DNA of 56,881 nucleotides from Spirochaetales bacterium. GTDB taxonomy: Bacteria > Spirochaetota > Spirochaetia > JABEVK01. The stretch spans positions 1-56,881 of the forward strand of contig JABEVK010000066.1 in assembly GCA_013044245.1 (NCBI GenBank), given 5' to 3'. How positions within the stretch are numbered: the stretch's first letter is position 1; every line of letters begins with the position of its first letter. A program made the position numbers and the translations under genes. Below the pieces are notes generated by a model that saw only the letters and a list, made by a program, of their open reading frames with translations, was not told where the DNA came from and ran no database searches. This document shows positions 44,883 through 51,352 of the stretch, piece after piece.

Positions 44883-45317
44883 TCACTCACGATGCAGTTT
44901 TATAAGATCTTCGAGTTTTTTTAAAAGCTCTTGGCGATTCTTTTCTTCTTCGGCAGAAATTGGTTCGGGGATAATTTTTGTTTTGGGTGCTTCCGAAGGA
45001 GCCGGTAGGTCCCCATAGCGAAACTTTAACCCTGTTATTTTCAATTCAGGGACACGACGCCGTAAACTTGCCAACAATGGTGCCTCATAGAGCAACAGAA
45101 GCTGTAGCCAAGCGGGATGATCGGCGGTGATCGTCACAACGCTATTTTTCCACTCCTCGATTCGGCAATGGCGCGCGGGGTGACGTTTGGCCAAGGCGGG
45201 AACATCCAACAAAACAGACTCCCAGCGGCTCACGAGGTGAAAAGACTCTTCGCCGGTAGGCCCAGTCTTTTGCGAAATAAAAGATTCCAGGTATGCTTTG
45301 AGCCTTTGTTCATCCAT
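44883..45317 (-). CDS. DUF721/DciA-like protein
   Basis: Small protein with WESVLLDVPALAKRHPARHCRIEEWKNSVVTITADHPAWLQLLLLYEAPLLASLRRRVPELKITGLKFRYGD; between recF and rpmH. Confidence 0.75.
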   Translation of the reverse strand: MDEQRLKAYLESFISQKTGPTGEESFHLVSRWESVLLDVPALAKRHPARHCRIEEWKNSVVTITADHPAWLQLLLLYEAPLLASLRRRVPELKITGLKFRYGDLPAPSEAPKTKIIPEPISAEEEKNRQELLKKLEDLIKLHRE

Positions 45318-46380
45318 CTTTTTCGAACCTACCGTTCTTAACTTTAAGAATCAAGGGTTCGAGACTGCTACTAGGGTGCTCCTCGGGCAAATACGTGAAA
45401 AACGCTTGTTCGGCACTTGGTAACTGCTTCAAAAACCGCTGTCTCTTTTCCCCGTCAAGCTCTAACAGAACGTCGTCAAACAAAAGTAAAGGCAATTTGC
45501 CTGATTTTCGGGCCGAAAACCGAGCTTGCGCCGTACGGAGCAGCAGCGAAACGAGACGCACCTGACCAGTAGAAGCCGCCTGGGCAAAGTCACGACCTTC
45601 GAGGGTGAACACATACCGATCCCGGTGCGGGCCCGTGGTGGTATACCCGGTTTCGCGTTCTTTGGTCCGAGATTGTTCCAACTGTTGGACCAAGTCTTCA
45701 TGTGAACCCCTCCACGAAGGCCGGTAACGAATTTCAAGTTTTTCTAAGCCTGATACCGTTGAAAACAGCTCGGGAAAAACCTCGTTGAACTCTTCGATCA
45801 ATTGCTGACGCGCCTCAACGAGATCTAAACCCTTGCGGATCAACTGTTCTTCCCAAACGGGTAGAGCCCCTCCGGGGTCCGAGCTGAGCAAAAGGTTCCG
45901 TGTTTTAAGGAGCTTTCGATATTGTCGCAAGTTATCGATGTAGGATGCGTCAAATAGCGACAAAGTTTGATCAAAAAAGAAACGCTGATGATCGGGGGTA
46001 CCTTGAACAAATAGGTAATCTTCGTGCGTAAACGCCACACAGGGCATTTCACGAACCATGTCTTTGCGGTCGCGCACCGGCTCGCGGTCCCATAAAAAAG
46101 ATTTTCCTTCTTCGGTAACTTTCAACCCTGCGGTATGAGTTTCACCGTCGCGCAAAAATTCCGCTTGAAGACTAAAGTGCGGCGAACCCCATCGACACAA
46201 TTGCCCATCGATTTTGGTACGAAACGACGAACCGTAGCAAAGAAGGTAAAGGGCTTCGAGAAAATTGGTCTTCCCTTGACCGTTTTGCCCCACCAAAAAA
46301 ATTTCCCTGGCTTTACCCAGGGAAATTTCCTCATCTTGAAGATTACGAAACTGGAAAAACCGTATCCGGGTAAACCCCAT
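45310..46380 (-). CDS. recF: DNA replication and repair protein RecF
   Basis: IRFFQFRNLQDEEISLGKAREIFLVGQNGQGKTNFLEALYLLCYGSSFR...GPHRDRYVF...STGQVRLVSLLLRTAQ...PLLLFDDVLLELD. Confidence 0.95.
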   Translation of the reverse strand: MGFTRIRFFQFRNLQDEEISLGKAREIFLVGQNGQGKTNFLEALYLLCYGSSFRTKIDGQLCRWGSPHFSLQAEFLRDGETHTAGLKVTEEGKSFLWDREPVRDRKDMVREMPCVAFTHEDYLFVQGTPDHQRFFFDQTLSLFDASYIDNLRQYRKLLKTRNLLLSSDPGGALPVWEEQLIRKGLDLVEARQQLIEEFNEVFPELFSTVSGLEKLEIRYRPSWRGSHEDLVQQLEQSRTKERETGYTTTGPHRDRYVFTLEGRDFAQAASTGQVRLVSLLLRTAQARFSARKSGKLPLLLFDDVLLELDGEKRQRFLKQLPSAEQAFFTYLPEEHPSSSLEPLILKVKNGRFEKDG

Positions 46381-47480
46381 TAGTCCATCTGCATGGGCAT
46401 AACGATATGAAAAAAGTCCCTGGCCGGTTCGGGGCGCAACGTCATAGCGCGTTTAGAATCGGTGAATTCCAATGCCATTCGCTCGGAACCTAAGACGCGT
46501 AAAGGGTCAAGTAAAAAGTTGTAGTTGACCGCAATGGTGGTTTGCTCTCCTGTAAAATCGCAGGGTATTTCTTCTTTAGCCATACCCAGTTCACTTTCTT
46601 CCGTGTTCACCATCAAGTTACCGTCGCCCACGGTGATAAAAACTCTTTTCGCTTTTTGTTCCGAGAGCAGTGAAACACGCTTGAGGGCTTCGCTAAATTC
46701 TTCACGCTTAAGACCAATCGTAAAGTTTTGACTTTCGGGTATGACACGGGAATAATTGGGAAATTGACCATCAATGAGGTTCGACGAAATTTTTTGATTA
46801 TCAAACCGAACAAAAAGCTGTTTGTCTCCGACCGATAGGCTCATGACGCCCTGTCCAGAAGCCAGCTTTCGGATCAAATTCATCGTTTTTGGAGGAACGA
46901 TGATACCGGGAAACTCAGGGATTCCGTTGGCAGGCTTTTCGATATACGAAAGTCTTCGACCGTCGGTAGCGACCATAACCACTTTATCGCCTTTGCGTTC
47001 CAAGTAAATCCCGTTCATAAAGTAACGAGTTTCATCGTCAGAAACCGAAAAAATTGTTTGACTGATCATTTCAAGAACTTCAGCTTGTGGTAGGTCAAAC
47101 CATACAGCGTTTTCCGGGTCTTTAATTTCGGGAAACTTATCGCTCGAGGCGCTTTTGAGTTGAAAATCGATAGTCGTTCCTACCGGTTTGATAAAAAGTT
47201 TGCCGTCACGAACTTCAAAGCTGATCTCTCGATCGGGTAAGGATCGAAGAATACCTAAAAGTTTTTCACAGTAGACGGTGGTTACTCCGTCTTGTTCGGC
47301 TGCTACCGGCAAACGAGTTTCAAAGGCTACTTTCAGGTCAGTGGCTTTGATGGTCAAAAAGCCATCTTTTACCTCAAGAAGAACATTGCTGAGGATCGAC
47401 ATGGCGTTCTTGACAGAAATAATTTCCTGGGCAATCGAAACTTCTTTGAGCAGAACGTTGCGTTCCAAGGCAAACTTCAT
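46380..47480 (-). CDS. dnaN: DNA polymerase III beta sliding clamp
   Basis: MKFALERNVLLKEVSIAQEIISVKNAMSILSNVLLEVKDGFLTIKATDLKVAFE...YFMNGIYLE...VATDGRRLSYIE...IVPPKTMNLIRKL. Confidence 0.96.
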   Translation of the reverse strand: MKFALERNVLLKEVSIAQEIISVKNAMSILSNVLLEVKDGFLTIKATDLKVAFETRLPVAAEQDGVTTVYCEKLLGILRSLPDREISFEVRDGKLFIKPVGTTIDFQLKSASSDKFPEIKDPENAVWFDLPQAEVLEMISQTIFSVSDDETRYFMNGIYLERKGDKVVMVATDGRRLSYIEKPANGIPEFPGIIVPPKTMNLIRKLASGQGVMSLSVGDKQLFVRFDNQKISSNLIDGQFPNYSRVIPESQNFTIGLKREEFSEALKRVSLLSEQKAKRVFITVGDGNLMVNTEESELGMAKEEIPCDFTGEQTTIAVNYNFLLDPLRVLGSERMALEFTDSKRAMTLRPEPARDFFHIVMPMQMD

Positions 47481-47510
47481 AGAAAGGCTCCTTCTTCTAA
47501 ATTTCTATTT

Positions 47511-47666
47511 ATAAAACAGTAGTAATAGTAGTAGTGTCGGGAAATTTGTGGATAAGCTTTCAAGTTCTTTTCCCAACGGCAGATATCTTTCCACATCCCT
47601 GTGAGAAGTTATGCCGGTTTTGTCCACATTTCCCCAAGCGCTTTTCGTTATACCGGATTTTCCACA
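47511..47666. other. oriC: Predicted origin unwinding element (DnaA box, GC patch, DnaA-trios, AT tract) and further DnaA-box-like sites
   Basis: TGTGGATAA at 47547-47555, TCGGG at 47537-47541, TAG-TAA-TAG-TAG-TAG at 47520-47534, TTTATAAAA just left; one-mismatch boxes TTGTCCACA 47620-47628 and TTTTCCACA 47658-47666. Confidence 0.75.
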
Positions 47667-47702: not shown

Positions 47703-49091
47703 TCATGAGGCGTTGGCTCGTTCTCGGATGGTACGCATGATGTTTTGAATCACAATATCAAAATTGGGTTCGGTTTTTAGCTTGTCGACGATCTTTTGGA
47801 CAGCGTGCATGACCGTGGTATGGTCACGGCCGCCGAACTCGATCCCGACTTCAGTGGTCGAAAACTCTGTCATTTCGCGAATTATGTACATCGCGATTTG
47901 CCGAGGTTGGGTAATGGCTTGCGTTCGCTTTTTGCCTTTGAGGTCCGAAACGCTCATTTTGAAGAACTCCGCAACAACCTTCATGACCAGATCCATGGGA
48001 ATGCTCTGTTGAACAGGTCCAGCAAAGATGTTTTTGAGAAGGCTTTGGGTTACCTCTAAGGTCAAATCACGGCTGGTGAGTTCGGCATAGGCAGAAATTT
48101 GCTTAAGAGCAGACTCTAAGTCGCGAATGTTTGTTGTGATTTTTCGGGAGATGATTTCGAGAACGTCATCCGACACCTTCAGTTGCCGAACTTCGGCTTT
48201 CTTTTTCAAAATCACCATGCGAGTTTCCCAGGTGGGAATCTGTAAGTCGGCGTTAATGCCCAAGGTAAGCCTACTCAACAAGCGGTCGGTAAAGTCACGG
48301 AGCTCTTGTGGGGGTCGGTCACAGGTAAAAACGAGTTGCTTTTTTGACTGGTAGAGGGCGTTGAAGGTGTTAAATAATTCTTCTTGTGTTTCGCGTTTGC
48401 GCTGAAGGTCATGGATATCGTCAAGCAATAAGACATCAGCATTGCGGTACTTATTTTTAAAACTGCTGGTCTTTTTTGTGTTGATGGCGTCAAGAAACTC
48501 GTTCACAAAGCTTTCGGTGGGAATGTAGAGGATATTTGCCTTGGGGTTGTTCTGGTAAATGGCATTTCCTATGGCTTGCATGAGGTGAGTTTTGCCCAAG
48601 CCGACGCCACCGTACAACAAAAGCGGGTTGTAATTGGTCCCGGGGTCTTTTGAAATCGCCACCGCGCAGTTGTACGCAAAGTCGTTGTTGCCGCCGACAA
48701 CAAAGTTGTCAAAGGTAAAATCGGGGTTGAGCATACTGTGCGGCCGTAGTTTGGCATGGTCAAACGAGCCTGAAGAGGCTATAGACGACGAAGAATTCTG
48801 TTTCATGGCAGGCTTTTCAGCGGGGAGAGAAACAGCTTTTTCGGCGGGTGCTTTCACAGTGAACTCGATGTTAACCTGGTGACCCGTCAAGTCTTTGAGA
48901 ATTCCTTCGAGCTTGCCTCCAAAGGTCGACCTGAGTTTATCGCGAAAAAATGCTGACGGACTTTCAACCGTCAAATTGTTGTCCTCTTCGAAGATGACGT
49001 TCAGGTTCGAAAAAAATAACACAAACTCTGACTCGCTCGTCGTTTGCTGGATTTGCGAGAGAGTCTCCTTCCAAAAATCTGCCAGGTGCAT
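47703..49091 (-). CDS. dnaA: Chromosomal replication initiator protein DnaA
   Basis: MHLADFWKETLSQIQQTTSESEF...NPDFTFDNFVVGGNNDFAYNCAVAISKDPGTNYNPLLLYGGVGLGKTHLMQAIGN...GIEFGGRDHTTVMHAVQKI; start at 49091. Confidence 0.96.
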   Translation of the reverse strand: MHLADFWKETLSQIQQTTSESEFVLFFSNLNVIFEEDNNLTVESPSAFFRDKLRSTFGGKLEGILKDLTGHQVNIEFTVKAPAEKAVSLPAEKPAMKQNSSSSIASSGSFDHAKLRPHSMLNPDFTFDNFVVGGNNDFAYNCAVAISKDPGTNYNPLLLYGGVGLGKTHLMQAIGNAIYQNNPKANILYIPTESFVNEFLDAINTKKTSSFKNKYRNADVLLLDDIHDLQRKRETQEELFNTFNALYQSKKQLVFTCDRPPQELRDFTDRLLSRLTLGINADLQIPTWETRMVILKKKAEVRQLKVSDDVLEIISRKITTNIRDLESALKQISAYAELTSRDLTLEVTQSLLKNIFAGPVQQSIPMDLVMKVVAEFFKMSVSDLKGKKRTQAITQPRQIAMYIIREMTEFSTTEVGIEFGGRDHTTVMHAVQKIVDKLKTEPNFDIVIQNIMRTIRERANAS

Positions 49092-49441
49092 GGTTAGCCT
49101 CAAAAAGGATTTTAACAAGTTATCCACAGATAGGGTAGCGAAAAGAGTATCCTAAACCCAAGAATTTTTCAAACAACACCTTAACAAAAATTTGCGAATT
49201 TGAAAAAAGAATTCAAATAAATAACTGTAATAGAACGACTTATTTTCTCATGGATTTTTAATTATAAAAACTTGTCGCCCGATGGTAAATTTTAGCCACT
49301 TTTCCCCTGAAAATCCACCGAATTTAAAAAGGAATTCCGAATTTTTCCACAAGTTATCCACGACCAGATTGCTTGTATATTATAAGACAAAAAGCTGAGA
49401 ATCTTTACTTTTTCGCTTTCAGCGCCTATACTGCGGGACTT
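49092..49441. other. oriC: dnaA-gyrB intergenic region, AT-rich, with DnaA boxes (second origin module and/or dnaA promoter)
   Basis: TTATCCACA 49120-49128, TTTTCCACA 49343-49351, TTATCCACG 49354-49362; AT-rich 49180-49290. Confidence 0.7.
49404..49432 (+). promoter_or_regulatory. gyrB promoter, near-leaderless
   Basis: TTTACT (49404-49409), 17 nt, TATACT (49427-49432), ATG at 49442. Confidence 0.55.
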
Positions 49442-51352
49442 ATGAACGAAAATTATTCCGCGGAGCAGATTCAGATCCTTCGGGGTCTTGACGCTGTCCG
49501 AATGCGGCCAGGTATGTATATCGGTTCCACAGGTCCCGATGGTTTGCATCACCTGGTCTATGAAGTTGTCGACAATAGTATCGACGAGGCCTTGGCGGGC
49601 TTCTGTACTGAAGTCAATGTCACAATCGAAGAGGGCGACATCATTCGCGTTGAAGACAACGGGCGCGGTATTCCTGTGGATATCCATCCCGAAGAGGGCA
49701 TCAGTGCTCTCGAAGTCGTCATGACCAAACTTCATGCGGGCGGTAAGTTTGACAAAAACTCCTACAAAGTTTCTGGCGGTCTCCACGGAGTGGGTGTATC
49801 CGTCGTTAACGCGCTCTCAGAATGGCTTGAGGTCATTGTAGAGCGTGATGGCCAGGCCTGGTTTCAAAAGTACCGCTTAGGTGAGCCAGTTAAGCCGGTT
49901 GAGCTATCTGGCCCCTCGTCGCGACGAGGAACCACAACAAAATTTAAGGCCGACCCGTCGATTTTTCAAGAAACGACGGTTTACAGCTTTGACGTGTTGG
50001 CCAAACGTCTTCGAGAATTGGCCTTTTTGAACAAAGGTGTTCGGATTATCCTCGTGGATTCCCGGGAACTTCCTGACAAAACCCAAGAGTTTTACTTTGA
50101 GGGTGGGGTGAAATCCTTTGTTGAGTACCTCAACACCAACAAAAACAAGCTCCAAGAAGAAGTGATCCACTTTGAAAAAGATAAAGATAGTGTCAATGTT
50201 GAAATCGCCTTGGAGTGGAACGATACCTACCAAGAAAATCTCTTTTGTTTCGCAAATAACATCAACACGCGCGACGGTGGTACTCACCTGATAGGGTTTA
50301 AGTCAGCCTTGACCAGAACGGTCAATGCTTTTTTAAATAACTCTAAGTGGGCTAAAAAGTTACCAGAACCTCTGTCGGGCGAGGATACCAGGGAAGGCCT
50401 AACGGCCGTCATCTCGGTCAAAGTTCCTAACCCGCAATTTGAGGGTCAAACGAAGGGTAAATTGGGCAATTCCGAGGTCAAAGGGATTGTCGAATCGGTT
50501 GTTAACGAAGAGTTACAAGATTATCTGGAACGGCACCCACGCGAGACGGAAAAAATCCTTGAGAAGTGTGTTTTGGCAGCAAATGCCCGTGTTGCGGCGC
50601 GTAAAGCTCGTGAGAATGCCCGTCGTAAGAACCCGTTTGAATCGAACGGACTCCCGGGTAAGCTGGCAGATTGCGCCGAACGCGACCCCACCAAATGTGA
50701 AGTCTATATTGTAGAAGGTGACTCGGCAGGTGGTTCGGCAAAGATGGGACGTGATCGTAACTTCCAGGCGATTTTGCCCCTGTGGGGCAAGATGCTCAAC
50801 GTCGAGAAAACCCGCGAGGACAAAGTCTTGACCAACGACAAACTGTTGCCGGTCATTCAGACGCTCGGTGCCGGTGCAGGCGAAGTCTTTGATGTTAGCA
50901 AATTGCGCTACCACAAAGTCATCATTATGGCCGATGCCGACGTCGATGGGTCCCATATCCGTACCCTTCTCCTGACGTTCTTTTTTCGTTACATGCGAGA
51001 TCTGGTTGAAAAAGGCTATGTGTACATCGCCATGCCGCCTCTGTACAAAGTTACCGTCGGTAAGCAGATTCGCTACGCTTATGATGACGCAGAGCGAGAA
51101 CGGATTCTGGCTGAGCTGGATGTTTCTGCCGAAAAAGCCAACATTCAACGCTACAAAGGTTTGGGTGAAATGAATCCCGACCAGCTGTGGGAAACCACCA
51201 TGAACCCCGCGACTCGGAATATCATTCAGGTTCATCTCGAGGATTACATTGGCGCCGATCAAATTTTTAACACCTTGATGGGTGATTTAGTTCCTCCCCG
51301 CCGCCAGTTTATCGAAGACAACGCCTTATTTGTTTCTAATCTCGACATCTGA
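49442..51352 (+). CDS. gyrB: DNA gyrase subunit B
   Basis: [53 protein letters not shown]...[32 protein letters not shown]. Confidence 0.97.

Follow-up and report, generated by a model that had tools for sequence, protein, structure and literature searches.

A predicted DnaA-trio opening site between dnaA and dnaN of an uncultured spirochaete, and its layout across Spirochaetia

In this study, we report a 45-base stretch (47511-47555) that very probably forms the core strand-opening module, or basal unwinding system (BUS), of a spirochaete chromosome origin, as judged from its sequence. It sits on the minus strand in the 222-bp gap that separates the dnaA stop codon from the dnaN start codon, and it narrows the likely site of strand opening in this uncultured organism to about 20 bp. 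The window, that is, the whole 56,881-nt stretch of DNA analysed, is contig 49 of a draft genome of 2.62 Mb in 142 contigs that is 94% complete. An earlier note on this DNA had held that the host does not look like a Bacillus; it is indeed a spirochaete (Spirochaetia), and, among named relatives, Spirochaetales and Spirochaetes metagenome bins come closest. Since BUS have been predicted in 85% of 2070 bacterial origins (1755 origins; PMC8287927), finding one in a spirochaete is no phylogenetic surprise.

The features of the locus are listed in Table 1. The minus-strand neighbours are dnaA, dnaN, recF and a DciA-family gene, the last directly after recF in the dnaA-dnaN-recF run, and the plus strand carries gyrB, gyrA, parA and parB. 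The dnaA start was placed at the ATG at 49091 because homologues align from about that position; a GTG start at 49127 was dropped for the same reason.

Table 1 Features of the dnaA-dnaN locus and its surroundings in the window
Feature	Position	Strand	Remarks
DciA-family gene, putative replicative helicase operator	44883..45317	-	Pfam PF05258, E 1.2e-8
dnaN (sliding clamp)	46380..47480	-	Pfam DNA_pol3_beta domains
AT tract TTTTATAAATAG, adjoining the trios	47505..47516	-	A/T-rich in relatives too
Six DnaA-trios, CTA CTA CTA TTA CTA CTG	47517..47534	-	
Three bases preceding trio 1	47535..47537	-	ACA in window, GCC-like in relatives
Spacer AATTTCCCGACA, 12 nt, between box 1 and trio 1	47535-47546	-	
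Site of abutting second DnaA box	47538..47546	-	~TATYCACAG in relatives; from position table
DnaA box 1, TTATCCACA	47547..47555	-	Perfect consensus, 0 mismatches, oriented toward trios
DnaA box, TTGTCCACA	47620..47628	+	1 mismatch, opposite orientation
DnaA box, TTTTCCACA	47658..47666	+	1 mismatch, opposite orientation
dnaA (initiator)	47703..49091	-	Pfam Bac_DnaA, Bac_DnaA_C, DnaA_N
DnaA box, perfect	49120..49128	+	Just upstream of dnaA
Two near-consensus DnaA boxes, TTTTCCACA and TTATCCACG	49343..49362	+	dnaA-gyrB gap
gyrB	49442..51352	+	Divergent from dnaA; Pfam DNA_gyraseB

From dnaA toward dnaN, the earlier note had described a perfect DnaA box, a GC patch, five contiguous trinucleotides and an AT tract. 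The box and the AT tract were found as described, and the other two elements needed correction. The uninterrupted YTA/CTG array, CTACTACTATTACTACTG as read on the minus strand and flanked by AATTTCCCGACA and TTTTATAAATAG, does contain five YTA units (CTA CTA CTA TTA CTA, 47520-47534), but it extends through CTG at 47517-47519. Six NAN trios are counted instead of five because this final CTG (3'-GAC-5') retains the central adenine, and six is also the number in relatives. The bound strand of the trios is 3'-GAT GAT GAT AAT GAT GAC-5', in which five of the six units are of the form 3'-(G/A)AT-5'. The GC patch is present as CCCG but does not touch trio 1, from which it is separated by ACA, an unusual arrangement among relatives, where the sequence is usually GC-rich directly at trio 1. 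CCCG falls within the site of the second box, which is degenerate in the window (AATTTCCCG, 3/9 matches) and clearer in relatives. The GC fraction is 0.20-0.27 across the last part of the dnaA-dnaN gap, and the AT tract is the probable site into which the opened region extends.

A run of five contiguous YTA units occurs once in the 56.9 kb window and in none of 100 shuffles. With box matches, spacer and six trios combined into one score, the dnaA-dnaN gap of the window reaches 25, and the highest value among 3000 dinucleotide shuffles of this gap is 19.

For comparison, the dnaA-dnaN gaps of 124 Spirochaetia genomes were collected. In 87 of them a box with at least 6/9 matches, starting 21 nt ahead of trio 1, lies exactly 12 nt before two YTA units; these genomes span at least 28 families, as they carry 29 family labels of which one pools loci of unknown family. 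Twelve nt is the commonest spacer in the set, and the other frequent values (7, 10, 13, 15, 16 and 18) probably reflect, to some extent, the 3-nt periodicity of the array or matches to the second box. Of the first 89 gaps, 81 outscored every one of 20 shuffles of the same gap, and 31/37 families include a member scoring at least 11. In the forward direction, 59 genomes have six central-T trios, at least four of them YTA, at 12 nt; on the reverse complement the number is 0.

The array is present in five of the seven genomes of the window's own family, and an order-level genome search gave the same seven genomes. The two genomes of genus g2 (G001 and G002; loci L074 and L075) have eroded arrays, in which the central base is lost in two or three of the six trios while the box and the 12-nt spacer are still recognisable; they offer a natural test of the minimum trio number. 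The more distant Spirochaetota classes, which were partly readable as dnaN was often not found adjoining dnaA, have clear arrays in some families only (e.g. f54, f63, f64, f65 and f72). The earlier note had proposed conservation in related genomes as a check, and the trios and the box-to-trio spacing are kept in close and distant relatives alike, with the two eroded arrays of the same family as exceptions.

Across relatives the array lies anywhere between about 20 and about 170 nt from dnaN, whereas its distance from the box stays mostly at 12 nt, so that its position follows the box rather than the gene. This bears on the suggestion that we have here a dnaN leader or promoter element, with the AT tract as its -10 region and the trinucleotides incidental. 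The element does end about 24 nt ahead of the dnaN start and includes TATAAAT, which is like a -10 element, but a sigma-70-like promoter was not found here on the minus strand, and with the variable distance to dnaN we regard a promoter role as very unlikely.

The shape of the array was measured in the 87 gaps, which were aligned by the box and trios 1 and 2 only. The central T is kept at trios 3, 4, 5 and 6 in 76, 65, 79 and 80 of the 87 gaps, and at trio 7 it falls to 43/87, as expected for AT-rich sequence; trio 7 is YTA in 8/87, and the array thus ends sharply at six units. A purely functionless trinucleotide microsatellite could give a short run of CTA-like units, and yet here the units alternate between CTA and TTA while their number is constant at six, the end is sharp and the phase to the box is fixed. 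Arrays of at least five units are also rare outside this setting, with a single one in the whole window and a single one in 400 kb of a relative, and the microsatellite explanation is hardly credible.

Within the array, the conservation of trios 5 and 6 in Spirochaetia matches that of trio 3, and trio 4 is the weak one. Twenty-nine arrays have a single broken trio, which is trio 4 in 18, trio 3 in 6, trio 6 in 3 and trio 5 in 2. With each family and position counted only once, the single breaks at trios 4, 3, 6 and 5 number 10, 4, 2 and 2 (chi-square P = 0.023). Borreliaceae add support: of the 15 arrays found there, 14 have CAA, CCA or TAA as trio 4, without its central T, and all 15 have the central T in trio 5. 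The dip in central-T retention at trio 4 is thus supported but not beyond doubt. In work on B. subtilis, trios 1-3 were named as essential.

In a position table of 62 gaps, positions 1-9 are box 1, positions 10-18 a weaker copy that abuts it (about TATYCACAG) and positions 20-21 GC-rich; the trios begin at 22. Of the Bacillota loci obtained with the same query, those with a clear layout have, by eye, mostly a 13-nt spacer, and a single base separates their boxes. Borreliaceae loci (L261-L275, L160 and L256) carry overlapping AATTAGACA-like repeats with an 8-bp step in place of a TTATCCACA-type box, followed by about four bases and then CTA CTA ATA CAA CTA TTA, so that the Spirochaetia layout is retained. 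The Borreliaceae pattern was found in 15/36 genomes of the family and in 14/18 of genus g21, and a reversed control pattern in 0. AATTAGACA is put forward as a candidate for the Borrelia DnaA box at the opening site. A 2022 study described the Borreliaceae DnaA box as still under investigation (PMC9879097).

The earlier note had named an inversion of GC skew as a further check, and opening in the dnaA-gyrB gap as one finding that would speak against its reading. Skew was computed in the window and, for a relative assembled as one 3.67-Mb contig (G068), in 20 slices. In the window, cumulative GC skew has its minimum at 46719 and is nearly flat over 46.5-48.0 kb, as measured in the organism's own genome within this contig. 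In the relative, negative values prevail ahead of dnaA and positive values beyond it, with a local minimum at about 1,915,941, beside dnaA. The switch is thus at the locus in the window and next to dnaA in the relative.

Near-perfect DnaA boxes are concentrated here as well, 7 of the 17 in the window falling in 47.5-49.7 kb. The dnaA-gyrB gap, with both strands scored, has boxes but no trio array, its score being 13 against 25 for the dnaA-dnaN gap; the class means on the better strand are 14.3 and 22.1, respectively. The two boxes near gyrB are possibly the second half of a bipartite origin, and boxes without trios in that gap would fit such an origin with its opening site downstream of dnaA. 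If opening took place in the dnaA-gyrB gap instead, the dnaA-dnaN array would be a relic or a DnaA-binding regulator. Three near-consensus boxes and AT-rich stretches in the former gap speak for this; the absence there of a box-plus-trio array on either strand, the class-wide conservation of the downstream array and the melting of the equivalent downstream gap in C. difficile (PMC7561715) speak against it, and we hold it to be highly improbable.

The window DnaA was aligned with B. subtilis DnaA as present in the BUS structure 8btg; papers and this PDB protein form the basis of the comparison with B. subtilis. It retains E183, N187, I193, K222, E228 and the arginine finger R264 (B. subtilis numbering) and carries the substitutions I190 to L, R202 to K, N196 to K and E223 to R, the first two of which are conservative. 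Across 89 Spirochaetia DnaA proteins, E228 and R264 are invariant and N187 is present in 79. Trio-contact residues are known not to be universally conserved, with the chemistry generally maintained (PMC10721633). As a separate observation, K replaces the guanine-contacting R202 in 83 of the 89 proteins.

A DnaB_2 (DnaD/DnaB) domain was not found in the organism's own 94%-complete draft genome, for which the B. subtilis positive control matched, and the DciA family is present in 7/7 genomes of the family. Because the operon holds a DciA-family gene and the draft has no DnaB_2 domain, helicase loading would presumably proceed via DciA, so that a Bacillus-like opening site would here go together with a helicase operator of the DciA type.

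The B. subtilis element at incC also lies between dnaA and dnaN and has an AT tract after the trios. The window further resembles it in a box ahead of the trios, the co-orientation of the two, six trios and most of the trio-contact residues of DnaA (PMC6669920, PMC10721633). It differs in its degenerate second box and GC patch, in K for R202 and in an operon with a DciA-family gene, the DnaD/DnaB domain being unmatched in the draft genome. The likeness in order and position to the B. subtilis BUS, which the earlier note had drawn, is supported by the conserved layout, the skew and the DnaA residues. C. difficile oriC2 shares an identical trio core, CTACTACTATTACTACT, the dnaA-dnaN gap and further boxes on the other side of dnaA; DnaA-dependent melting was mapped there in vitro to the dnaA-dnaN gap and needs both gaps (PMC7561715), whereas opening in the window is predicted. 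B. burgdorferi oriC belongs to the same class and uses the same gap, which its DnaA binds in gel shifts (PMC9879097); Borreliaceae differ from the window in the repeats that replace box 1 and in the broken fourth trio.

The published predictions (PMC8287927) were followed in defining a BUS as a DnaA box with at most 2 mismatches and at least three contiguous 3'-NAN-5' trios at no more than 16 bp, running away from the box. The window has a 0-mismatch box with six NAN trios 12 nt away. Its spacer falls within the reported 10-13 bp peak, and GAT is the commonest trio there as here; the commonest spacer of the predicted set is 13 bp (PMC8287927), whereas it is mostly 12 in Spirochaetia. A second tandem co-oriented box is frequent but not obligatory, being present in 57% of predicted BUS.

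In B. subtilis, the boxes load DnaA in cis onto the trio strand, where it captures two bases per trio and separates the strands (PMC6669920, PMC10721633). For the window, sequence, position, conservation, geometry, skew and DnaA residues were established, and from them we infer DnaA binding, the direction of the oligomer and opening. DnaA would bind the perfect box, with a second molecule probably on the degenerate neighbouring site. The oligomer would extend over the GC-containing spacer onto the trio strand, capture two bases per trio and open about 18-20 bp. The AT tract toward dnaN would then melt, leading to helicase loading. Boxes elsewhere in the dnaA-dnaN gap and in the dnaA-gyrB gap may raise local DnaA, as in other bipartite origins. 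The second box with 3/9 matches, the displaced GC patch, the two eroded arrays in the same family and the changes of N196 and E223 to K and R count against the BUS reading.

Spirochaetia emerge as a class with a very regular BUS. We suggest tentatively, as a proposal that is somewhat doubtful, that it is a distinct form with abutting boxes, a fixed 12-nt step and exactly six trios, the central adenine being dispensable in the fourth and obligatory in the fifth and sixth, and that Borreliaceae keep the same geometry with the box changed to AATTAGACA. The DnaA oligomer would then read the array as two blocks and need its far end. The BUS itself is already known; the 12-nt step, the six trios, the weak fourth trio and the changed Borreliaceae box may be new, as no paper on these regularities or on spirochaete trios was found in a literature covered incompletely and without supplements. 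The comparison bears on the number of trios required and on whether every one has to be read, and it offers a candidate box for the Borreliaceae origin.

Outside the spirochaetes, 28 of 58 dnaA-dnaN gaps of Oscillospiraceae and related bacteria (L010-L067) have a trio array with a one-base slip, for example CTA NNN N CTA CTA CGA over 16 nt, a pattern seen in 0/89 spirochaetes. Such slipped arrays are unexpected because a one-base deletion within the B. subtilis trios slows unwinding (PMC6669920).
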